From a virus, in IMG/VR virus record IMGVR_UViG_3300031787_000936, positions 1 through 22,010 of that record: a DNA stretch of 22,010 nucleotides; one strand, written 5' to 3'. The translations under genes and the position numbers were made by a program. The notes below the pieces were generated by a model. The model searched no databases. It was not told where the DNA came from and worked only from the letters and a program-made list of their open reading frames with translations. Shown in pieces: positions 2,087 through 13,357 of the stretch (its first letter is position 1; every line of letters begins with the position of its first letter).

Positions 2087-2461
2087 TCAGGGCGGATCGG
2101 GCCAAAGCGGCGCGCGCGGATCGGCGGTCGACGCGGGCAGGTCGCGTAACGCCTGGCGATGGCGCGCCCAGGCTGCGCGGTCGACCGGCGCGTCGGGGAC
2201 TTGCGTCCAGTCCGAGGCGGCGAGGCGCGCGTTGCGCGCCATGCGCAGATCGGCCCAGGCGCGCGCGAGCGCCTCGGCCTCGATCTCGGCCTCGGGCTTC
2301 GGCACGATCTGCCCCGCGACGACGCGCGCGCGCGTCCCGTCGACCCAGCCCGCGACGACGCCCTCGCCCGGCGCGAGGTTCAGCGCGACGAGTTCGGGGG
2401 CGAGCATGGCGCGCCGCGTGATCTCGCCGGTCGCCAGCGCATGGAAGCTCACGCGGATCAT
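2087..2461 (-). CDS. Phage tail assembly chaperone (Phage_tail_APC-like)
   Basis: This 124-residue protein matches the general plan of Phage_tail_APC proteins, which follow the tip protein gene in many siphophages. The C-terminal half reads WADLRMARNARLAASDW, then TQVPDAPVDRAAWARHRQALRDLP and a final WPDPP. The pattern W-x2-R-x2-R-x3-LxxxDW...P...R..LRDLP...WP..P is characteristic of the family. The N-terminal 60 residues are a separate small region rich in hydrophobic residues. The ATG at 2461 overlaps the stop of the J-like gene as ATGA, so translation is probably coupled. The same frame stays open far upstream, but that extension runs antisense-shifted inside the J-like gene and is not credible. 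Confidence 0.82.
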   Translation of the reverse strand: MIRVSFHALATGEITRRAMLAPELVALNLAPGEGVVAGWVDGTRARVVAGQIVPKPEAEIEAEALARAWADLRMARNARLAASDWTQVPDAPVDRAAWARHRQALRDLPASTADPRAPLWPDPP

Positions 2462-5295
2462 CGCTTCAACTCGATGATGAAGAGCGAGGCGCCGACGATG
2501 TGGACCTGATCGGCGTCCCCCGTCGTCGGCTCGCAGGTAAAGCTGTAGGTGACGGGCCCGGTCGCGATATGGGTCGTGTCCTGCACGAAGGCGCTGACGT
2601 TCAGCCCCGAGACCATCGGGCCCGAGACCCCGTCGATCATGACCCCATCCGCGCGGATGCGCATGTTCATGCGCGCGTATCGGTTCGAGAGGATGAGCCC
2701 GCCGGTCAGATGCGTGACATTGGCCTCCGCCATGACCCAGACGGGCGCACCCGACTGCACGATGGCGAGGCTCGCAAGCACCGTCTCGCCCCCGCCGACG
2801 CGGTTGATGGTGGTCACCGGCCCCTCGATGAAGCTCGGGAAGGTGACGGCATTGTCGGCGATCTTGGCGGTCGAGACGGCAAGATTGCCGATCTTTGCGG
2901 TGGTGATGAGGCCATCGCCGATCTGCGCTGCCGAGGTGATGATCCCGCTCGCCGCGATGAGGCCACCGGTGATGGTGTTGGCCGCGATCCGGTCGCCGGT
3001 GATGGTGCCAGCCGCGATCTTGCCCGCATCGATCGCGCCCGCGGCGATGGCGCTTGCCGTCACCGCGCCGGCGGCAATCTTGCCGGCATCGATCGCACCA
3101 GCCGCGATCTTTCCCGCCGTCACCGCGCCGGCGGCGAGCTTGCCCGTCGAGACCGCCCCCTCGCCGATCTGGGTGGTGGTGATCTGGCCCGCGATCTTGG
3201 CGGCGGCGATCGCCGCGATCTGATCGTCGGCAAGCTGGCCCGTGACGGCGACCGCGGGCACCTCGGCCGTCCATGCGCTGCCGGTCCAGCGATAAAGACG
3301 GTTGTCGGCGCGCGAGAAGGCAAGCTGGCCCTGGAAGGCGCCGGACACGGGCAGCGTCGCGACGATCTCGGGCGCGCTCAGCCCCGCATCGGCGAAAAGG
3401 CCCCGCACGCCGTTCTCGAAGGCGCTCTCGTCGAGCCAGACGGCGGGCGTCGTCGCATCGAGCCAGCTCGACCAGGCGGTCGGGCGCTCGGCGAGATAGC
3501 GCCCCCGCGCCTGATAGGCGGTCGCGGAGAGGAGCCCCTCCGAGACGAGAACCGCGCCCGCGGCCCGATCCGCGACCCCCGCGACGACGACCGCGGCACT
3601 CGCGGCAAGGCGGATCTCGTAGCCGACGAGGGCCGCGTCGCGCGCGGCCGTGCCGGTCCAGGCGAGGCGGATCGCGGGGCGTCGATCAAGCCCGAGACCG
3701 TCGCGGATCGTCGTGGCGGCGACCGACCAGCCCTCGATCACCTGCGGCGGGCGGGGAGCGAGGCCGGTCGCGGGCACGACCGCCGGCAGATCCTCGGCCG
3801 GGGACCAGAGGTAATCGGCCGGGTCGCGCTCGCGCAGAACGACCTCCTGGTTGATGCTGCCGGGCAGGTCGGCGATCTCGACCACCTCGAAGACCTTCGC
3901 GCCATAGCTGTTGCGCGCCGAGGTCCAGGCGATGGTGTCGAGCGGCTCGAGCACGAAGGCCTCGGGCGGCAGCACGAGCCGATGCGTCCGGAAGCGCCGC
4001 GCGTCCCGGACATAGGCGGCCATCAGTTGCGCGACCTGGCTGAGGTCAGGGCAGGCCGGAAAGCCGATGCTGGTCGACAGGCGCCGCCCGCCGTCCTCGG
4101 CCTCCCAGCTCGGGTTGAAGAGGGGCGGGGCCGCGCGTGCCGCCCAGAGGCTCGCGGGCTCGGGATACTCGGCCGCGATGGCATTGACGCTGGCGGCAAG
4201 CCCTGGGAAGGAGTCGAGCTCCTGCGGCGCCGAGATCACGATATCCTCATCCGTGATGAAGAGCACGGGTGGGGCCGGGGCGCCGACGCGCAGCCGGAAC
4301 ACCCCGCCCATCTCGCTGAGCTGCCCGAGGCAGGTCTTGGCGATCTCCTCGATCGCCTCGGCCGGTTCCGTCCCGAGCCTGACCTCGAGGCCGGCGACGA
4401 AGCTCGGGCGGCTGCCGATCGGCGCGTCGCAGGCGTTCATGGCGGCAAACCAGCTGTCGAGCGGCAGATCCTCGGCCGCCACCGCGCCGCCCCAGATGTC
4501 GCCGGATGGGAGCCGGATGCCGCGCAGGATGTTGTAGATCATCACCGCCGGGTTTGCCGAGCGCGCCCAGGTGGCGGGCTCGGCCCAGCGCTGCGCCCCC
4601 GCGCCGCCGACGGAAGCATCGAAGCGCGGATCGTAGAGCGCGATCCCGTCGAGCTCGAAGCGGACGGCCGGCAGCGTGTTGAAGACCGCGCGGTTCAGCC
4701 GAAAGGTCAGGATCGCATGGGCGGTGCCGGTGCCCACATGCGCCGCCGACCAGGGCCGGTCGGGGTAGCTTGCATATTTTGCGACCAGCATCGGGTCGGC
4801 CGTGGTCTGGGTGCCGTCGTAAAACCGGATCCAGGCGTGGTCGGTGTCGCCGACGCGCTGCCCAAGCAGCGGATGGCCGTAATCGGGATGCGCACTGGCC
4901 CCGAGGTCGGAATAGCCATCATTGAGGATGACGCGGCGAAGTGCTGCGCCGGGGATGTCGGAGAGCTCGATCACATAGGTCAGGAACCCGTTCGGCGTGC
5001 CCGCATCGTCATGGCTCATGGGCGGGCAGACATGGTGGCCGGCGGTGGCGGTGCGCCCCAGGATGAAGGCTTGCGGCTCGGTGCCCCCGGTCGTGGTGAC
5101 GGCGGTCTGGATACCGCCCTGGCGGATCGTGGGCTTCGGGGCGAGCGCGCGCGCGATGAGCGAGATGCCCGCCGAGATCGCGGTGTTGACGAGAAGCGTG
5201 CCGACGAACGAGCCCGCGGCATAGGCCGAGACGACAGAGATCGCCCCGCCCAAGGCACTGCCAAGGGCGGCGATGGCGGCACCGACTGCGGGCAT
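2458..5295 (-). CDS. Tail tip / host specificity protein (lambda gpJ-like)
   Basis: This 945-residue protein occupies the place of lambda gpJ, the central tip protein that binds the receptor. Residues 1-52 are Ala/Gly-rich and hydrophobic (two helical stretches), as in many tip proteins of this class. Residues about 345-495 look like the Phage-tail_3 domain. Residues about 515-620 resemble a fibronectin type III fold. Residues about 655-680 hold an LYRWTGSAW motif. Residues 701-790 and beyond are a run of 10-residue repeats. The last ~125 residues form a separate C-terminal domain that I cannot match and that is the likely receptor-binding end. The ATG at 5295 overlaps the previous stop as TGATG. 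The frame is open up to 5769, but that extension lies over the DUF6950 gene and has shadow-type composition. Confidence 0.88.
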   Translation of the reverse strand: MPAVGAAIAALGSALGGAISVVSAYAAGSFVGTLLVNTAISAGISLIARALAPKPTIRQGGIQTAVTTTGGTEPQAFILGRTATAGHHVCPPMSHDDAGTPNGFLTYVIELSDIPGAALRRVILNDGYSDLGASAHPDYGHPLLGQRVGDTDHAWIRFYDGTQTTADPMLVAKYASYPDRPWSAAHVGTGTAHAILTFRLNRAVFNTLPAVRFELDGIALYDPRFDASVGGAGAQRWAEPATWARSANPAVMIYNILRGIRLPSGDIWGGAVAAEDLPLDSWFAAMNACDAPIGSRPSFVAGLEVRLGTEPAEAIEEIAKTCLGQLSEMGGVFRLRVGAPAPPVLFITDEDIVISAPQELDSFPGLAASVNAIAAEYPEPASLWAARAAPPLFNPSWEAEDGGRRLSTSIGFPACPDLSQVAQLMAAYVRDARRFRTHRLVLPPEAFVLEPLDTIAWTSARNSYGAKVFEVVEIADLPGSINQEVVLRERDPADYLWSPAEDLPAVVPATGLAPRPPQVIEGWSVAATTIRDGLGLDRRPAIRLAWTGTAARDAALVGYEIRLAASAAVVVAGVADRAAGAVLVSEGLLSATAYQARGRYLAERPTAWSSWLDATTPAVWLDESAFENGVRGLFADAGLSAPEIVATLPVSGAFQGQLAFSRADNRLYRWTGSAWTAEVPAVAVTGQLADDQIAAIAAAKIAGQITTTQIGEGAVSTGKLAAGAVTAGKIAAGAIDAGKIAAGAVTASAIAAGAIDAGKIAAGTITGDRIAANTITGGLIAASGIITSAAQIGDGLITTAKIGNLAVSTAKIADNAVTFPSFIEGPVTTINRVGGGETVLASLAIVQSGAPVWVMAEANVTHLTGGLILSNRYARMNMRIRADGVMIDGVSGPMVSGLNVSAFVQDTTHIATGPVTYSFTCEPTTGDADQVHIVGASLFIIELKR
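2926..3195 (-). repeat. Tandem 30-bp (10-residue) repeats in the gpJ-like gene
   Basis: About nine consecutive 10-residue units follow the pattern AAG(A/T)(V/I)(T/D)AGKI, for example AAGAVTAGKI and AAGAIDAGKI. In DNA this is a 30-bp period. The units probably form a stalk between the tip body and the C-terminal domain. Copies are close enough for unit gain or loss by slippage. Confidence 0.85.
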
Positions 5296-5687
5296 CAGGG
5301 GGTTCTCACGGCAAAGGCGCGACGCATCCGGCCGCGGGGGACAAGGCCGAGGCCCGAGGGCGTCAGGCAATAGATCATCTCGCCCGCGACGATGCCGAGG
5401 GCCTCGGCCTCGAGGACGGCGAGATCGCCGGGCTGGGCGAAGGCGGGCGGGATCTCGGGCAGGTTGGCGGCGGCAAGGGCGATATGGTCGGCGTGTCCCG
5501 CTGCCTCGAGAAGGCGCCGCCCCTGGCGGAGGCTGCGATAGCGCCCGCGCCAGCCCCGCGCGAGGTCTCGGCCGGTGACGATCTTGACCCAGCCCGCCGC
5601 GAAGAGCGCGCAGTCGTGGCGCCCCGGCCGGAACGGGCGCGCGCCCGCCGCCGTGGCATGGGCGATGAGCCAGGAAAGCCGGTCCAT
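5295..5687 (-). CDS. DUF6950 / NlpC-P60-like tail protein (lambda gpK position)
   Basis: This 130-residue protein sits where lambda encodes gpK, a tail-associated peptidase-like protein. The N-terminal region carries GRHDCALFAAGWV (H24, D25, C26), which resembles the nucleophile-cysteine motif of NlpC/P60 folds. Further on are LPEIPPAFAQPGDLAV and GLGLVPRG motifs, which I associate with the DUF6950 family. A role in trimming peptidoglycan cross-links or in tail-tip assembly is inferred from family and position. A complete Cys-His catalytic pair is not obvious after the cysteine, so activity is uncertain. The ATG at 5687 overlaps the upstream stop as TGATG. An upstream ATG at 5714 would add 9 residues but would overlap the previous gene more deeply. 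Confidence 0.82.
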   Translation of the reverse strand: MDRLSWLIAHATAAGARPFRPGRHDCALFAAGWVKIVTGRDLARGWRGRYRSLRQGRRLLEAAGHADHIALAAANLPEIPPAFAQPGDLAVLEAEALGIVAGEMIYCLTPSGLGLVPRGRMRRAFAVRTP

Positions 5688-6298
5688 CAGGCGCGCTCCC
5701 GCTTCTCGCCCCACCAGACTTCGACCTCGCCCGCGATGTCGCTGTAGCTGCGGAACGCGTCGCCCGCATTCCGTCGGCGCATCTCGGCGTCGGAGCGCGT
5801 CAAGGTCAGCGCCCGGGTCAGCCCCCGCGCGGCGCTCGCGAGCGTGACCGTGGCCTCGCCCGTGCCCCCGACCTCGGGCGTCCGGATCTGCACCGCGTCG
5901 ATCCAGCCGCGAAACACCCGGATCGGCTCGGCGATCGGCTGATCGGTCTCGAGCGAGAGGAGCGCGCGGTGCACCTCGGCAGGCGCCAGTCGCGCGTCAT
6001 GACCTCGAAGGAGCTCCGCGACCTCGGGCGTGAGCGGGCTCAGCGCAATTTGCAGCATCCGAACCTCGAGCCCGATGCCGGCCCGGATCGGTTCCACCCC
6101 GATCAGACCGCCCGCGCCGTAATAGGTCCGGTTCACCCCGCCGATGGCGATGGTGAGGTGGTCGTCCCCCTGCCAGAGGCCGAGCGCCTCCTGCGCCCCC
6201 GTCGCACGATTGCGCGCGACGACATGCACCATGTGGCGGCTCGCCACGCCGGTGCGGGCGGCGAGATAGGTCGCGGAAGCAGGATCGAGGATGCGCAT
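5687..6298 (-). CDS. Phage tail tip/hub protein (lambda gpL position)
   Basis: This 203-residue protein lies between the distal tail protein and the DUF6950 gene, the position of lambda gpL. It has features common to tail hub proteins of this type: IRVFRGWIDAVQI near 142-154, TLASAARGL near 167-177, and an ending with RRRNAGDAFRSYSDIAGEV then WWG. I infer a hub or baseplate-like role joining the tube to the tip. I do not see the cysteines expected of an iron-sulfur gpL. The start at 6298 has a Shine-Dalgarno (AAGGA, 5 bases upstream). An in-frame ATG 18 codons earlier would fall within the brnT promoter region and is unlikely. Its 5' side abuts the brnTA island, so leftward transcription must cross that island or start within it. 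Confidence 0.72.
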   Translation of the reverse strand: MRILDPASATYLAARTGVASRHMVHVVARNRATGAQEALGLWQGDDHLTIAIGGVNRTYYGAGGLIGVEPIRAGIGLEVRMLQIALSPLTPEVAELLRGHDARLAPAEVHRALLSLETDQPIAEPIRVFRGWIDAVQIRTPEVGGTGEATVTLASAARGLTRALTLTRSDAEMRRRNAGDAFRSYSDIAGEVEVWWGEKRERA

Positions 6299-7184: not shown

Positions 7185-7838
7185 TCACCTCAGCGTCTGG
7201 ATGAAGTCGAAACTGGCGCCGCGGCTGAGCGCCTGACGCCCAGCGCCATAGGTCGGATCCGGCAGAAGGCGCGCCTTGCAGGCCGGTCGGATCAGCGAGA
7301 TCGTGAGCCCTGCGACAGCGCCCGCGCGCAGGTTCGGCACCACCTCGAGCATCGGGGTGAGGCCGCCGCTTGAGGCCGTGCCGCCCACGACGATGCGGTG
7401 CAGCGCGTATCGGACTGGGCTCGCGCCATACTGGAAGGACAGCATGTCGCCTGCGGAAAGGACATATCCCGACGGCAGACCGGTGACGCGCAACTCGCGC
7501 ATGTTCGCGGCGAGGCTGTGGATCGTGGGCGTGGCGGGCCCAAGGATCGCCCCTGTCGGATCGCCGGCGGGGCCGATCTGGCGCGGGTCGTGGCAAAGGA
7601 AGGTCGCACCCGGCTGGTCCATCAGGGCGATCAGCGCCTCCATCCCGGCGTGGTGCGGATGGCTGGCCTGGGCGAGCCGGATCGAGCCGGTCCAGAGCGC
7701 TGCGCCGAGGCTCGCGCTGATGACAGAGCCATCGCCAAGGCGCGTGTGTTCCTGCGGGTGCGAGAGCCGGAACGTCACCTCCTCGATGCGCAGGGCGCCG
7801 AGGAATTGGGCGTGGGTCAGCGGATAGGTCAGCGCCAT
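7185..7838 (-). CDS. Putative distal tail protein (lambda gpM position)
   Basis: This 217-residue protein directly follows the tape measure gene, with the TGATG stop/start overlap at 7838. That is the place of lambda gpM, which links the tube end to the tip. The sequence is beta-rich with no signal peptide or membrane helix. I recognise no named domain with certainty. Motifs such as THAQFLGALRIEEVTFRL at the start and GMEALIALMDQPGATFLCHD in the middle are typical of alphaproteobacterial phage tail proteins annotated only as hypothetical. The assignment rests mainly on gene order. Its downstream end is convergent with the Phd-like gene. Confidence 0.68.
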   Translation of the reverse strand: MALTYPLTHAQFLGALRIEEVTFRLSHPQEHTRLGDGSVISASLGAALWTGSIRLAQASHPHHAGMEALIALMDQPGATFLCHDPRQIGPAGDPTGAILGPATPTIHSLAANMRELRVTGLPSGYVLSAGDMLSFQYGASPVRYALHRIVVGGTASSGGLTPMLEVVPNLRAGAVAGLTISLIRPACKARLLPDPTYGAGRQALSRGASFDFIQTLR

Positions 7839-10273
7839 CAGCCCCTCCGCCGTGGGTCCTGTGCGACGCGCGCGAGGGTGCGCGGCGCGATCAGCCGGTC
7901 ATAGTGCTGCAGCGCGCCGGAGACGCCCGCATTCACCATCTCTTCGATCTCGCGGTTGCCGCGCGCGCCCTCGACATTGACGGAGATCTCCAGTCGCTGC
8001 GGCCCGGCGCCTTGGGTGCCGGCGGCCACGTCGCGGCGCGAGAGTACCCGCTCCCCGCGCTGCAGGATGGTTGGCACCTCGTCGGGCCGCAGCCCGGCCC
8101 AGCCACCACTGTGCAATCTTGGCGCGCCGGCGAAAGCCAGCGCCGGCACCTGCCGGGAATGTCCGGAAAGCCCGACCATGCCGCCGGCATGCGACACGGC
8201 CGCCGTGACATTGCCGCCGCCCCAGGGGCCAAATGCGCTGGAGAGCGCATCGGCGATGGGCCCGAGCACGGCATTGCGGAACTGCAGCACGGCGAGGTCC
8301 TCGAGGATCGAGGCCACCAGCCCCTTGAAGTCGAGCTTGCCGGTCTTCACGAAGGCCCGGAATGCGGTCTCCGCCGAGCGAAACGCGCCCACCAGGCTCT
8401 CGCCCAAGCCCTTGCCCCACTCCTTCGCGTCGCGGGCGTAATCGGCGAGCGCGGCGGAGACAGCGCGCCAGCCGGTGGCGGCATGATTCGCCCCGGCTGA
8501 AGCGTCAGCACCCGCCTGAAGCGCGGCCCCGCCTGCGCGGTTGGCCTGCTCCTCCGTCTCTTCCAGCGCATCGGTCACAAGGCGGGCGGCGCCTTCGGCT
8601 TCCGTCAGCGCATCAGCACCATCACTGCCCGCCGTGGTCACCGCATCCGTCAGCGCCTGCCAACTGGCGAGCGGCGCTGTTGCTCCGCGCGCGAGATCCT
8701 CGGCGGCCTCGCGATAGGCGTTGGCGCTGCCCAGCGCCTCGGTCGCGATCGCCCCGAGACCGAGGTTGGGGACAGCGAGGAGGTTCGTCTCGAACCCGCG
8801 GGCGAAGCCCTCGGCCGCGCGCCCGCCGATGTCGACGGCCTCAGGGACCACCGCCATCCAGTCGCCGAGATCGGGCGGCGCGATCGCCCATTCGGGGCGC
8901 CGACCGCCCAGGGTGAGGAGCGTGTTGATCGCCTCGGTGACGCCCGCGAGACCCGACTGCATCGCCTCGATCAGCGTGTTCATGGCGAGCGCGCCGATGC
9001 GGGCGAATACGTCCGGCAGCGCGTTCCACACCGCCTGCACCGCGTAGAACGTGCCCTGGAAGGTGTTCACCGCCGTATTGCCGAAGCCGACCACATTCTC
9101 GATCGCCGAGGCCATGGCGCCGGCGGCGTCCGACTTGATGTCGAAGAACATCGCCGTGGCCTGCGCCCCCGCCGCCGCGGCACCGAGCCCGATCCGGTCC
9201 CAGACCTCGACCGCGACATCCCTCAGAAGCCCCATCGCCGCCCCGAACCCGCCCGCGCCGCGCGCGAGCTGGCCGAATTGGTAGATCAACTCGCCCGCCC
9301 CCACGATCAGCGCCCCGATCCCGGTGCGGATGAGGGCGCCGCGCAGGAGCGTCAGCGCACCCGAGAGCGTGAGCGTCGCGACACGGGCCGCGACGAAGGC
9401 CGCAACCCAGCGCCCGGCCATGACGCCCGCGACGGCAATGGCGATGGCCGCCAGCCGCTCGAGATTGTCGGCAAGGCCGATCAGCGCCCCCGTCACCGTG
9501 GCGGAGGTGCCAGCCATCCGGTCCCAGGTCCCGACCAGTTGCAGGGCCGCGTTCCCGATCAGCGTGAAGGCATCGCCGATGGTGGCCGGCATGCTGTCTG
9601 CCTCGGCGCGGAGTTGCTCGAGATTGCCGATGAGCGCCCGGCGGATCACATTGCCGGTGATCGCGCCCTGCTGGCCGAGGCCGCGCAGGCCCGAGACGGT
9701 GGTGCCAAGCTCGGCCGCGAGCAACTCGGCCACCCGACCGCCCGAGGCGATCACGGTGTTGAGTTCATCCCCCGACAGTCGGCCGAGCGCCATCGCCTTC
9801 GAGAGCGCGCCCTGCACCGAGGCCGCGCGCTCGGCCTTGGCCCCCGAGACAACGAGTGCGTTGTTCAGCGCTTCGGTGAAGTCGAGCGTCTCGGCCGTGG
9901 AGAGGCCGAGTTCTCGCAGCGCGGTCGCGTTGGCCAGATAGCTCTCGACCGTCAGATCGAGGCTCGAATATGTCCGCCGCGCGACGGCCGCGAGCCGGTC
10001 CATGACGGCCGCGCCCTCGCCCTGCGCCCGCGTCGCAAGGGCGACCCGCGCGCCGAGGTCGGTCCAGCGGTCGGTCATCGCGACGATCTCGCGCAGGCCG
10101 AAGGCTGTCGTCACGAGCCCCGCGAGGCGGCGCAGCGCGACCGCGGCAAGATCGACCTCGCGCGTGATCGCGCGAAACCCCGACTGCCCGGCCTCGCCGA
10201 TCCCCTGCAACTCCGCCCGCACCCGCCGCCCGCCCTCGGCGACCAGCCGGACAGAAACCTGTTTGGTGGCCAT
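7838..10273 (-). CDS. Tail tape measure protein (lambda gpH-like)
   Basis: At 811 residues this is the second longest protein in the window. Tape measures set tail length, guide tube polymerisation and travel with the DNA. Residues about 50-230 match the lambda-type N-terminal region (ALSKAMALGRLSGDELNTVI and GLRGLGQQGAITGNVIRRAL). Residues about 275-330 form a long hydrophobic stretch. Residues about 695-745 carry the C-terminal hallmark HAGGMVGL...LHSGGWAGLRPDEVPTIL...GERVLSR. The protein is Ala-rich and largely helical. The ATG at 10273 has an AAGGA about 10 bases upstream. The higB operator lies only about 22 bases upstream of this start, on the opposite transcription unit, so the two may influence each other. 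Confidence 0.93.
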   Translation of the reverse strand: MATKQVSVRLVAEGGRRVRAELQGIGEAGQSGFRAITREVDLAAVALRRLAGLVTTAFGLREIVAMTDRWTDLGARVALATRAQGEGAAVMDRLAAVARRTYSSLDLTVESYLANATALRELGLSTAETLDFTEALNNALVVSGAKAERAASVQGALSKAMALGRLSGDELNTVIASGGRVAELLAAELGTTVSGLRGLGQQGAITGNVIRRALIGNLEQLRAEADSMPATIGDAFTLIGNAALQLVGTWDRMAGTSATVTGALIGLADNLERLAAIAIAVAGVMAGRWVAAFVAARVATLTLSGALTLLRGALIRTGIGALIVGAGELIYQFGQLARGAGGFGAAMGLLRDVAVEVWDRIGLGAAAAGAQATAMFFDIKSDAAGAMASAIENVVGFGNTAVNTFQGTFYAVQAVWNALPDVFARIGALAMNTLIEAMQSGLAGVTEAINTLLTLGGRRPEWAIAPPDLGDWMAVVPEAVDIGGRAAEGFARGFETNLLAVPNLGLGAIATEALGSANAYREAAEDLARGATAPLASWQALTDAVTTAGSDGADALTEAEGAARLVTDALEETEEQANRAGGAALQAGADASAGANHAATGWRAVSAALADYARDAKEWGKGLGESLVGAFRSAETAFRAFVKTGKLDFKGLVASILEDLAVLQFRNAVLGPIADALSSAFGPWGGGNVTAAVSHAGGMVGLSGHSRQVPALAFAGAPRLHSGGWAGLRPDEVPTILQRGERVLSRRDVAAGTQGAGPQRLEISVNVEGARGNREIEEMVNAGVSGALQHYDRLIAPRTLARVAQDPRRRG

Positions 10274-10321: not shown

Positions 10322-10603
10322 ATGATCATGAGCACCCGCGGAAAGCTCGCCGAGCAGGCCATGACGGGCCAGTTCGGCAAGGGGTTCCCCGCCGATCTGG
10401 TGAAACGAACGCGCGCAATGCTCTCGGCGCTGGATGCGGCGCATGTTCTTGAGGATCTGCGCTTTCCGCCGGGCAACCATCTGGAGGCGCTGAGTGGTGA
10501 CCGGGCGGGCCAGCATTCGGTCCGCATCAATGGCCAATGGCGCATCTGCTTTGTCTGGACCGATCAGGGCCCAGCTGACGTCGAAATCGTGGATTACCAC
10601 TGA
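10322..10603 (+). CDS. higB: HigB-type toxin (RelE superfamily)
   Basis: This 93-residue protein has the HigB 'host inhibition toxin' signature: LEDLRFPPGNHLEAL near 43-57 followed by GDRAGQHSVRINGQWRICFVW and a final VEIVDYH. HigB proteins cleave ribosome-bound mRNA. The C-terminal EIVDYH is typical and the length is normal, so it should be functional. Two starts are possible, 10322 (MIMSTRG) and 10328. I kept the first because the promoter suggests a leaderless mRNA and no Shine-Dalgarno is seen. The gene faces opposite to the tape measure gene, and its antitoxin follows 11 bases downstream, the toxin-first order characteristic of hig loci. Confidence 0.92.
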   Translation: MIMSTRGKLAEQAMTGQFGKGFPADLVKRTRAMLSALDAAHVLEDLRFPPGNHLEALSGDRAGQHSVRINGQWRICFVWTDQGPADVEIVDYH

Positions 10604-10614
10604 AAGGAGCCGCC

Positions 10615-10905
10615 ATGAGCCTGCTGACCCAACCGTCCCACCCCGGCGAGGTGCTCGCTGAGCTCTATCTTGCGCCTTTGGGGATGAAGGCGCCGACGCT
10701 GGCCAGGCAATTGCAGGTCCCCCGCACGCGGATCGAGCGTCTGGTCAAGGGTGAGACAGCGCTCACGGCGGACACGGCCATGCGCCTCGCCGCCTTCTTC
10801 CAGACCACGCCCGAATACTGGATGAACCTGCAGCGGGCCTGGGATCTGGCCCGCGCGCGCGAGACCGTCGACGTATCAGGCATTCAGCCGCTCCACGCTG
10901 CCTGA
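10615..10905 (+). CDS. higA: HigA-type antitoxin (XRE-family HTH)
   Basis: This 96-residue protein begins with SHPGEVLAELYLAPLGMKAPTLARQLQVP and continues with a helix-turn-helix core and the hallmark TADTAMRLAAFFQTTPEYWMNLQ then RAWDL. HigA binds and neutralises HigB and represses the operon through the palindrome before higB. A Shine-Dalgarno (AAGGAG, 7 bases before ATG) supports the start. The 3' end lies within a 53-bp repeat that is shared with the junction beyond vapBC, and its last codons (PLHAA, stop) have a counterpart (PALRAA, stop) there. Confidence 0.93.
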   Translation: MSLLTQPSHPGEVLAELYLAPLGMKAPTLARQLQVPRTRIERLVKGETALTADTAMRLAAFFQTTPEYWMNLQRAWDLARARETVDVSGIQPLHAA

Positions 10906-10942
10906 TCGTACCTCTTCGTTGACATCGCGCTCCATCACCGCC
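10890..10942. repeat. Direct repeat copy 1 flanking vapBC (higA / tail chaperone junction)
   Basis: This segment matches 11725-11777 at 47 of 53 positions by hand alignment, at a constant offset of 835. On the plus strand it encodes the end of HigA. On the minus strand it encodes a remnant of the tail chaperone C terminus, reading MERDVNEEVRSGSVERLNA then stop. The remnant frame is open for about 45 codons upstream but has no visible start. Confidence 0.85.
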
Positions 10943-11037
10943 CCTCCCTGCAGCGCGGCGCTTTCGGGCGAGCGTACCTCTAGCCTTGCAGTGCAGCACC
11001 TGAAGTCGTACTTTCCTTAGATCGATGAGTTGCAGGT

Positions 11038-11256
11038 ATGATGATGGCCGAGACAGCGACCCTCTCGACGAAGTTCCAAATCTCGATCCCCAAGGCGATC
11101 CGGGCGCCCCGGCGGTGGGACGCGGGCCTGACCTTCGCCTTCATACCGAAGGGAACCGGAGTTCTACTGGTGCCGATCCCCAAGCGCGAGACGCTGAAGG
11201 GCATCGCCCGCGGCGCCGATCCACGCGACGTCCGCGATCGCTCGGACCGCGCCTGA
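11038..11256 (+). CDS. vapB: VapB-type antitoxin (AbrB/SpoVT fold)
   Basis: This 72-residue protein has the swapped-hairpin AbrB motif LSTKFQISIPKAIRAPRRW followed by LTFAFIPKGTGVLLVPIPK, and then a short basic-acidic tail (RDVRDRSDRA) of the type that wraps the toxin. VapB neutralises VapC and represses the operon. Three in-frame ATGs (11038, 11041, 11044) are consecutive; the AGG at 11034-11036 would best serve the third. It overlaps vapC as TGATG at 11254-11258. The region between higA and this gene (10906-11037) holds repeat copy 1 and at best a weak promoter (TTGCAG, 17 bases, TACTTT at 11009-11014). Confidence 0.9.
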   Translation: MMMAETATLSTKFQISIPKAIRAPRRWDAGLTFAFIPKGTGVLLVPIPKRETLKGIARGADPRDVRDRSDRA

Positions 11257-11636
11257 TGGTCCTGATCGATACATCAGCCTGGATCGAATGGCTTATGGGA
11301 ACGCCCACAGGTGAGCGCCTCGCGCCGCTTCTGCCCGAGCAGGCCGCCTGGGTGGTGCCTACGATGGTCCAACTCGAGTTGTGCAAATGGCTAACCCGCG
11401 AAGTGGGCGAGGAAAAGGCCGATCAGGTGATCGCGTTCACGCAACTTTGCCGCGTCGTCGATCTCGACACCGCGACTGCACTTGGAGCCGCCGAGGCGTC
11501 GCGCACGCACGGCCTCGCAACTGCTGATGCGATCATCTACGCGACAGCGACCGCAGAGGGCGCGGAACTCGTCACCTGCGACGGGCATTTTGACGGGCTG
11601 CCGGGCGTAACCTTCGTCGCGAAGGTACGCGCGTGA
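11256..11636 (+). CDS. vapC: VapC-type toxin (PIN-domain ribonuclease)
   Basis: This 126-residue protein is a PIN-domain nuclease. The four conserved acidic residues are visible: D5 in LIDTSAW, E41 in MVQLELCKW, D91 in ATADAIIYATA and D109 in LVTCDGHFDGLPGV. VapC toxins cleave tRNA or rRNA with magnesium at this site. All active-site positions are intact, so the toxin is probably active. The ATG overlaps the vapB stop, so translation is coupled. It runs against the phage operon and ends 74 bases before the convergent tail chaperone ORF. I see no convincing terminator in those 74 bases. Confidence 0.94.
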   Translation: MVLIDTSAWIEWLMGTPTGERLAPLLPEQAAWVVPTMVQLELCKWLTREVGEEKADQVIAFTQLCRVVDLDTATALGAAEASRTHGLATADAIIYATATAEGAELVTCDGHFDGLPGVTFVAKVRA

Positions 11637-11710: not shown

Positions 11711-11956
11711 TTACCCATCCCGGCGCTCCGCGCTGCCTGATCGCACCTCTTCGTTGACCTTGCGCACCATCGCCGCCTCAACGGTGGGGAGGAGTTCGGC
11801 GATGGCGAGGGAGGGGATGCCGAGCGCCGCGCCCAAGTGCAGCGCGGCGCCCATGTCCCAGCCGATGACGGCGGAACCTGACACCCGCAGCTGCCCCCCG
11901 AGGCGCTGGACCAGATCCCAGACCTGCCAGCCTTCGAGGCTTTGCGGGGCGTTCAA
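11711..11956 (-). CDS. Tail assembly chaperone, T part, made as a -1 frameshift fusion with gpG
   Basis: The open frame encodes SLEGWQVWDLVQRLGGQLRV, GWDMGAALHLGAALGIPSLA and a C-terminal VNEEVRSGSAERRDG. I associate this with the DUF7697-type proteins that follow tail chaperones in alphaproteobacterial phages. A stand-alone start is poor: only TTG at 11956, with no Shine-Dalgarno. However, the same frame is open back to the A_AAA_AAC site at 12046-12052 in the preceding gene, exactly the -1 frame. The fusion would be about 234 residues (123 from gpG plus 111), as in lambda gpGT. The 30 linking codons carry a CxxCxxxCxxC segment. In lambda, gpGT recruits tail tube protein to the tape measure. 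Its 3' end lies in direct repeat copy 2. Confidence 0.8.
   Translation of the reverse strand: MNAPQSLEGWQVWDLVQRLGGQLRVSGSAVIGWDMGAALHLGAALGIPSLAIAELLPTVEAAMVRKVNEEVRSGSAERRDG
11725..11777. repeat. Direct repeat copy 2 flanking vapBC (tail chaperone 3' end)
   Basis: This copy forms the true C-terminal coding end of the tail chaperone fusion on the minus strand. On the plus strand it still reads as a HigA-like ending (PALRAA, stop at 11738-11740), although no higA gene precedes it. Copy 1 is at 10890-10942. Together they bracket the vapBC module. Confidence 0.85.
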
Positions 11957-12414
11957 CCGCGACGGGCAGTCCGGGCAGTCTTGCGGGCAGGCTTGGCAGT
12001 AGTCGCCGCCCCCGCTGAATTCCCACTCGGCAAGGGCGGTGAGGCGTTTTTTTCCGCCTCGAGGATCATGGCGCGGGCGACATAACGGGTCTGGAACGCC
12101 TCGAAGATCGGCCAGATGTCGAGGAGCGCGTCGACCCCCTCAGCGCTCACCGGAACCGGAAAGCCGTTTGCGTCCCCGACACCTTTCCAGTCCCTGATGG
12201 AGACGCGGGCGACGGCCTTGGCCAGGGCAAGTGCGATGCCATCGGTGTCGGGCGCCGCGTCGGAGGGGTCCGCGCCCGCGGGGTCTGGGATCAGCCCCTG
12301 CGCCTCCTTGCGCGCGGCCATCATCAGCGCCGTGGTCATGGGGGCGGCCAGGATCTCGACGCCATGGCCGAGATCGAGCCATTGCGCCTCTTGGGTGAGG
12401 TTCAGCCGCAGCAT
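11953..12414 (-). CDS. Tail assembly chaperone, gpG-like
   Basis: This 153-residue protein lies between the tail tube and tape measure genes, the position of lambda gpG. It begins MLRLNLTQEAQWLDLGHGVEI, has a helical middle and ends in an Ala/Lys/Arg-rich tail (AKPARKTARTARRG). The start at 12414 is one base beyond the tail tube stop. A longer in-frame extension covers the tube gene and is a shadow. Codons 121-123 (GAA AAA AAC) contain an in-frame slippery heptamer, so a fraction of ribosomes should shift to -1 and make the longer GT product. In lambda, gpG coats the tape measure before tail tube polymerisation; the same role is inferred here. Confidence 0.85.
   Translation of the reverse strand: MLRLNLTQEAQWLDLGHGVEILAAPMTTALMMAARKEAQGLIPDPAGADPSDAAPDTDGIALALAKAVARVSIRDWKGVGDANGFPVPVSAEGVDALLDIWPIFEAFQTRYVARAMILEAEKNASPPLPSGNSAGAATTAKPARKTARTARRG
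12006..12052 (-). promoter_or_regulatory. Programmed -1 ribosomal frameshift signal (A_AAA_AAC plus GC stem)
   Basis: On the minus strand the heptamer A AAA AAC occupies 12052 to 12046 and sits correctly in the gpG frame (GAA AAA AAC). Six bases later CCGCCC (12039-12034) can pair with GGGCGG (12011-12006), a 6-bp all-GC stem with a 22-base loop. The -1 frame has no stop from here to 11711. Slippery site, spacing and stem all match known -1 frameshift signals. Confidence 0.88.
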
Positions 12415-12415
12415 C

Positions 12416-13357
12416 TCAGTACGCCTCCCGTGCGTTGATGAGCGTGACCGTGCACATGCGACCGAGGCCTGGGTCACGCGCCGCCTGCCAGTCGAAGGTC
12501 GCCTGCACGCCTTGCGGCCCCGCAATCTCGATCCGGGGACGCGGCAAATAGACGGCGTGGGCCGTGAGCGTCAGGCTCTCGCCCGAAGGTAGCGCATAGG
12601 CGAACTCGAGCGTGCAGGCCTCGCCGTTGATGGCCTGGGTCACCAGCGCCTGGTCGGCAAAGCGCACCACGATATTGCCGGTGAGCGCGGCGATCGACGG
12701 ATCGGCCCCTTCGATCTTGCCGTCCGAGCGGATCGTCTCCACCCGGTCGAGGCTGTTCGTATAGGTGATGTCGGCTGACACCACGTTACCGATGTTCGCA
12801 CCATTGCGGGTCACCGCGCCGTTGAAGTACCCGAACCGTCTGAGCGCCAGCTCGGCTGGCGTGCCGGCCGCCGACGCCGTGGCCACACTCTCGCCCTGCG
12901 CGATGATCCGCGCGGTCGCGGTCAGGAGCCCCGAGCGGCCCATCTGCCAACTGATGCTGTCGAGCTTACAGCCGGCATAGATCGCATAGCGGGGTACCTC
13001 CGGCATCCCGGTCTCGATCGCAAAGGACGGCAGGGTCCAGTTGCCCGACTGGAAGCTATGGGTGAAGGCCGGCTCAGACCCGGTCGTCACGGGCGCCCCG
13101 AAGGCCGCCTTCAGCCAGAAGCCGAATGCCTCGGCATCGATCGGGACGACGACATCGCCATCCGCCGTCAGCGCATCCTTGATGGGCGCCAGCGGATCGC
13201 GGCCATAGCCCAGAAGCTCCGAGGCCAAGAGCGGCTGCTCGGCCCCGAGCGTCGTGCTCGCAAAGGGCATGCGCGTGAAGCCGCTCGCGGGCGGCGTGCC
13301 ATAGGTCGTCTCGAACGCCAGCGCCATCTGCGCCCGCGCCCCCTGGGCTCGTGCCAT
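12416..13357 (-). CDS. Major tail tube protein (lambda gpV-like)
   Basis: This 313-residue protein fits the Phage_tube_2 type. It starts ARAQGARAQMALAFETTYGT then PPASGFTRMPFAS, a segment common in these tube proteins. It continues with EAFGFWLKAAFGAP, SFQSGNWTLPSFAIE and a C-terminal beta-rich part ending FDWQAARDPGLGRMCTVTLIN. It would form the hexameric rings of the non-contractile tube. A Shine-Dalgarno (GGAG, 7-8 bases before ATG) supports the start at 13357. It is followed directly by the gpG/GT chaperone gene, as in lambda. No sheath gene is nearby, consistent with a siphophage. Confidence 0.9.
   Translation of the reverse strand: MARAQGARAQMALAFETTYGTPPASGFTRMPFASTTLGAEQPLLASELLGYGRDPLAPIKDALTADGDVVVPIDAEAFGFWLKAAFGAPVTTGSEPAFTHSFQSGNWTLPSFAIETGMPEVPRYAIYAGCKLDSISWQMGRSGLLTATARIIAQGESVATASAAGTPAELALRRFGYFNGAVTRNGANIGNVVSADITYTNSLDRVETIRSDGKIEGADPSIAALTGNIVVRFADQALVTQAINGEACTLEFAYALPSGESLTLTAHAVYLPRPRIEIAGPQGVQATFDWQAARDPGLGRMCTVTLINAREAY

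Follow-up and report, generated by a model that had tools for sequence, protein, structure and literature searches.

Comparative evidence for a lambda-type -1 ribosomal frameshift joining two tail chaperone frames in a Rhodobacter-group phage

Results

Organization of the tail gene locus

The window analysed here is the IMG/VR virus record IMGVR_UViG_3300031787_000936 (22,010 bases), whose minus strand was read and translated. It comes from a Rhodobacter-group tailed phage. A pair of overlapping open reading frames lies between the genes for the tail tube and the tape measure protein, and the genes of the region are as follows.

12416-13357, minus strand: tail tube protein (PF18906, E = 5.8e-57)
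11953-12414, minus strand: gpG-like tail assembly chaperone, 0 frame, 153 residues (phrog_313, E = 1.9e-19)
11253 (approximately) to 11636, plus strand: PIN/VapC toxin (PF01850)
11038-11256, plus strand: likely VapB
10615-10905, plus strand: HigA (TIGR02607)
10322-10603, plus strand: HigB (PF05015)
7838-10273, minus strand: tape measure protein (PF20155, E = 9.6e-49)

The first frame opens at ATG 12414, with GGAGG ahead of it, and stops at TGA 11955-11953; its phrog_313 match makes it a member of the tail assembly chaperone family. No Pfam match was found for gpG, and neither sequence searches of solved structures with the profiles of G and of the second frame, T, nor Foldseek searches of both proteins against the PDB returned a useful match. 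In a second look by structure alignment, gpG resembled the HK97 tail assembly chaperone (PDB: 2ob9, Z-score: 4.4) and YqbN (PDB: 3klu, Z-score: 5.0), both weak and below a trustworthy level. A tail terminator gene (phrog_4204) is, like that of the tail tube, transcriptionally upstream of gpG. The order tail tube, G/T (11711-12414), tape measure counts in favour of a frameshift of the lambda G/GT type.

Two toxin-antitoxin modules (10322-11636), on the opposite strand within the tail operon, separate the T domain from the tape measure gene. Among 80 distinct relatives in which the start of the tape measure gene is visible (the window counted), 53 have no insert before this gene, 10 have HigBA and 6 have VapC; the window has both. 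This site in the tail operon is a toxin-antitoxin hot spot.

A slippery heptamer and a hairpin near the 3' end of gpG

The gpG frame reads GCG GAA AAA AAC, in which a run of seven A (12053-12047) is followed by C12046. The preliminary description had claimed a heptamer in the gpG phase, a 6-base spacer and an all-GC stem of six base pairs. The first two are borne out by our reading, and the elements of the junction are given below.

12046-12052, minus strand: slippery heptamer A_AAA_AAC in the gpG phase, identical in 231 of 242 distinct relatives
12040-12045, minus strand: 6-base spacer, GCCTCA
12030-12039, minus strand: 5' arm of the hairpin, CCGCCCTTGC (MFE -24.0 kcal/mol, z = -4.3 for the whole hairpin)
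12006-12015, minus strand: 3' arm of the same hairpin, GCGGGGGCGG, containing the Gly codons GGC GGG GGC

The 15 main ORFs of the minus strand (5,815 codons) contain just two in-phase heptamers of the X_XXY_YYZ type. The second is GGGAAAG at 3115-3109 (minus strand), which lies in a large tail protein gene (2458-5769) and is followed by a long open -1 frame. As a frameshift site it was rejected: the downstream Phage_tail_APC gene begins at 2461 with a start of its own in an ATGA overlap, most relatives align only from near that position onward, and a conserved -1 product ahead of it was not seen. This heptamer looks like a chance occurrence.

The stem at 12039-12034/12011-12006 is present at the expected place, but its size had been understated. 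The predicted fold has 10 continuous base pairs (12039-12030/12015-12006) and an inner helix of four more, and starts six bases past the heptamer. None of 200 dinucleotide shuffles was equally stable. When the segment was recoded with the same -1-frame amino acids and the codon usage of the family (n = 1,000), the mean MFE was -17.1 compared with -25.9 for the window, and a fraction of 0.001 was as stable. The hairpin therefore exceeds both chance and what would arise as a by-product of GC-rich coding.

The structure is also maintained in relatives. A stem of 13 positions, compared over 147 distinct blocks, is 91.8% paired, whereas slid versions of it reach 45-60%, and paired cells number 1755 compared with 1681 (sd 6) in shuffles. 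Variation in the stem is mostly from C-G to U-G, and the outermost position alternates between A-U, C-G and U-A pairs. The degenerate third positions of the Gly codons in the 3' arm are nearly invariant, and in 55 of 60 sampled relatives the block folds better than 95% of its synonymous recodings. The hairpins of two relatives (L155 and L320) are weaker and fall short of this level, so the hairpin is not universal; it may have been lost in the most distant members. In the window, spacing, stability and synonymous constraint together describe a stable downstream structure under selection.

An upstream Shine-Dalgarno-like stimulator of the dnaX style was sought in 234 loci, and no motif of at least four bases was found in the scanned interval; this interval omits the six bases adjoining the heptamer, and in the window these include GAGG. 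In Escherichia coli, A_AAA_AAC is reported to be far less shift-prone than A_AAA_AAG (PMC5009743), the heptamer preferred there and used by no member of this family. A second lysine tRNA (CUU) as the reason for AAC over AAG was considered and rejected: AAC is found in hosts with and without Lys-CUU. Eight Rhodobacterales genomes had one Lys-UUU and no Lys-CUU, and Lys-CUU was found in Devosia and Pannonibacter, in a check limited by draft genomes and a strict search pattern (records L382-L389, L350 and L351).

The -1 frame encodes a conserved domain with no start of its own

From C12046 the -1 frame reads RLTALAEWEFSGGGDYCQACPQDCPDCPSRL... (RLTALAEWEF...) for 111 codons, with a stop ending at 11711. 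Translation thus agrees with the earlier claim that this frame is open throughout the neighbouring ORF. Its features are as follows.

11711-12046, minus strand: T domain in the -1 frame, 111 residues and stop, accessible only after the shift, conserved from residue 1 (AlphaFold mean pLDDT 92.6)
11711-11956, minus strand: ORF starting at TTG, the call expected from a gene finder
11966-11998, minus strand: four-cysteine motif C17xxC20xxxC24xxC27, a putative metal site
11738-11875, minus strand: Pfam DUF7697 (PF24752, E = 3.1e-23), the C-terminal half of T (residues 58-103)

TTG 11956 is the sole ATG, GTG or TTG in the -1 frame between the upstream stop and T codon 45, and it lacks a Shine-Dalgarno sequence, as the preliminary description had noted. 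The ORF that starts there is, however, better regarded as a partial reading of a longer domain made only through the frameshift, since T is conserved for 30 codons upstream of the TTG and no Shine-Dalgarno sequence precedes it. In the window, gpG itself continues for 31 codons beyond the slip site, and this tail is predicted to be disordered (pLDDT about 50-59).

Membership of T in DUF7697 is clear (81.9 bits, curated cut-off 27). Pfam labels the domain 'unknown function', and a literature search on DUF7697 found no paper. The four cysteines lie in the N-terminal half of T and outside the Pfam model, probably because that family was built from ORFs starting after the motif. C17, C20 and C27 are invariant in the alignment, C24 is conserved in at least 90%, and 233 of 234 loci hold CxxC(3-12)CxxC. 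Compared with viral models, the T fold gave as its top named matches the tape measure chaperones of other phages, although weakly (E from 0.01 upward); the matches also include the Loki and CcrColossus chaperones. T may be a metal-binding module. That CxxC(3-12)CxxC binds zinc and is needed for recruitment of the tail tube, with DUF7697 as the C-terminal half of the module, cut off as gene callers miss the frameshift, is a proposal to which we give an even chance.

Both frames and the slip site are retained in relatives

Loci were recruited from IMG/VR with gpG alone (80) and with the -1 product (80), and both frames were present in every one; as this holds for the loci recruited by gpG alone, it was not created by recruiting with T. 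Further scans and GTDB genomes brought the collection to 323 sequences, which reduce to 242 distinct junctions from phages and prophages; these relatives are not independent of one another. The heptamer is A_AAA_AAC in 231, G_GGA_AAC in nine and A_AAA_AAA in one, and is masked in one. Every readable junction is slippery, those recruited by gpG alone included, and 26 more distant loci (T identity down to 34%) have the same three heptamers only. Comparison of related phages for the heptamer, as the preliminary description had proposed, thus speaks for conservation of the site.

A missed A in a homopolymer of what is truly a single ORF could produce the same arrangement, runs of this kind being prone to sequencing and assembly error. 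However, more than 200 distinct junctions, drawn from independent metagenomes as well as from genomes of isolates, share the seven-A layout, junctions of the G_GGA_AAC form lack a long run, and the gpG frame of 81 loci ends two or three codons beyond the site. We regard the probability of such an error as negligible.

These 81 early-stop loci also reveal how the region is read. Over T codons 2-16, entropy at -1-frame codon positions 1, 2 and 3 is 0.043, 0.035 and 0.409 bits, and over T codons 17-30, beyond the hairpin, it is 0.588, 0.458 and 1.336 bits. This pattern past the early gpG stops indicates that the region is translated in the -1 frame. Relative to expectation, synonymous codon entropy in the family is 0.08 at the EKN codons of the heptamer and 0.48 and 0.39 in the hairpin octets, compared with 0.60-0.92 over most of both frames.

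The second ORF could instead be an independent gene, expressed from TTG 11956 or by translational coupling, with the heptamer incidental. The -1 frame does contain a TTG, and two genes rather than one are annotated in some deposited relatives. Against this, T is conserved from its first residue, directly after the slip site and 30 codons ahead of the TTG, and synonymous choices at the heptamer are almost wholly conserved. Of the 234 loci in which both frames are complete, 130 have no start codon for T at all, leaving no other way there to translate the -1 frame, and only two have a Shine-Dalgarno-like motif ahead of a candidate start. There was no clear case of a stop in the -1 linker among these loci (L061 and L286 were set aside because a translation contained stops or ambiguous bases), nor a relative in which a good independent start with Shine-Dalgarno sequence replaces the slippery site. 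An independent second gene is accordingly most improbable.

Slippage of RNA polymerase on the run of seven A in the window, adding an A and so fusing the frames in the transcript, would yield the same protein. The G_GGA_AAC lineages, in which the frame relation is unchanged without a long homopolymer, argue against it, as does the constraint on a hairpin at the distance expected for a ribosomal stimulator; we consider transcriptional slippage very unlikely. The swap between two canonical heptamers, which changes EKN to EGN, is expected under selection for slipperiness but not under selection for the protein or for a homopolymer.

The cyanophages Sc-Yong805-1 and Nsp-JY21 (L163 and L162; Synechococcus and Nostoc) have the same G/T layout, with A_AAA_AAA at about 1995-2001. 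Their records list two separate genes and no fusion, and the frameshift seems to have been overlooked in annotation.

Discussion

A probable programmed -1 frameshift from gpG to gpGT

Sequence comparison makes it very probable that gpG and T are joined by programmed -1 frameshifting of ribosomes, as in lambda G/GT. This supports the original reading of the locus; the relatives yielded none of the observations that would speak against it, and phage RcKemmy is annotated with the same fusion. Ribosomes translating gpG would pause at the hairpin, six bases beyond A_AAA_AAC, and we infer that a minority re-pair one base back, from AAA AAC to AAA AAA. These would read on in the -1 frame and produce gpGT, which is gpG followed by the 111-residue T domain, and unshifted ribosomes would terminate at the gpG stop codon. 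The ratio of gpG to gpGT would be set by the slip site and the hairpin. By analogy with lambda, gpG would coat the tape measure protein and gpGT would, through T, recruit the subunit of the tail tube.

The mechanism is already well known as the tail chaperone frameshift of lambda. What is added here is comparative support across a large family of phages and prophages of Rhodobacterales and some cyanobacteria, a larger hairpin than had been described, and the placing of DUF7697 and the cysteine motif. DUF7697, a domain of unknown function, gains a position and a likely role, and automatic annotation can evidently truncate the T domain and lose its four cysteines, a motif that is nearly invariant. 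Being well sampled, the family also offers natural data on swaps of bacterial slip sites (A_AAA_AAC to G_GGA_AAC) and on constraint on the hairpin.

Comparison with known systems

The window resembles lambda in the gene order around G/T, in the position of the pair between the tail tube and tape measure genes, in an X_XXY_YYZ heptamer near the 3' end of G, in the -1 direction of the shift and in a T frame without its own start. The slip heptamer of lambda is G_GGA_AAG, whereas the window has A_AAA_AAC followed by a strong, conserved hairpin. The window T domain also differs in having the four-cysteine motif and DUF7697, and its gpG lacks a Pfam match. The gpG/gpGT frameshift of lambda was described by Levin (1993) and by Xu, Hendrix and Duda (2004, 2013, 2014), as cited in a review of the mechanism and its wide conservation (PMC5009743). 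For two frameshift genes in a chaperone cluster like that of HK97, 6% and 7% have been measured (PMC3711429).

The two main heptamers of the family are also known from Caulobacter phages, with AAAAAAC in the phiCbK type and GGGAAAC in Colossus, both in the chaperone gene that precedes the tape measure gene (PMC3556154); the T fold has a weak match to the Colossus chaperone. In Acinetobacter phage Loki, AAAAAAC adjoins the stop of gp12 and a gp12-gp13 fusion has been proposed (PMC5313236). Loki thus shares the heptamer with the window, and the T fold has a weak match to its chaperone.

Eleven Rhodobacter capsulatus phages, RcKemmy and ten relatives (MW677517 and others), match both window proteins. 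The paper on these phages notes that the frameshift typically occurs in genes for tail assembly chaperones (PMC8601537). Their G (40-41% identity) and T (53%) are homologous to those of the window and the hairpin lies at the same distance, although the slip site is G_GGA_AAC and the stem is GCGCCCTTGC/GCAAGGGCGC. In RcKemmy the fusion is annotated as a joined CDS, tail assembly chaperone, as we propose for the window.
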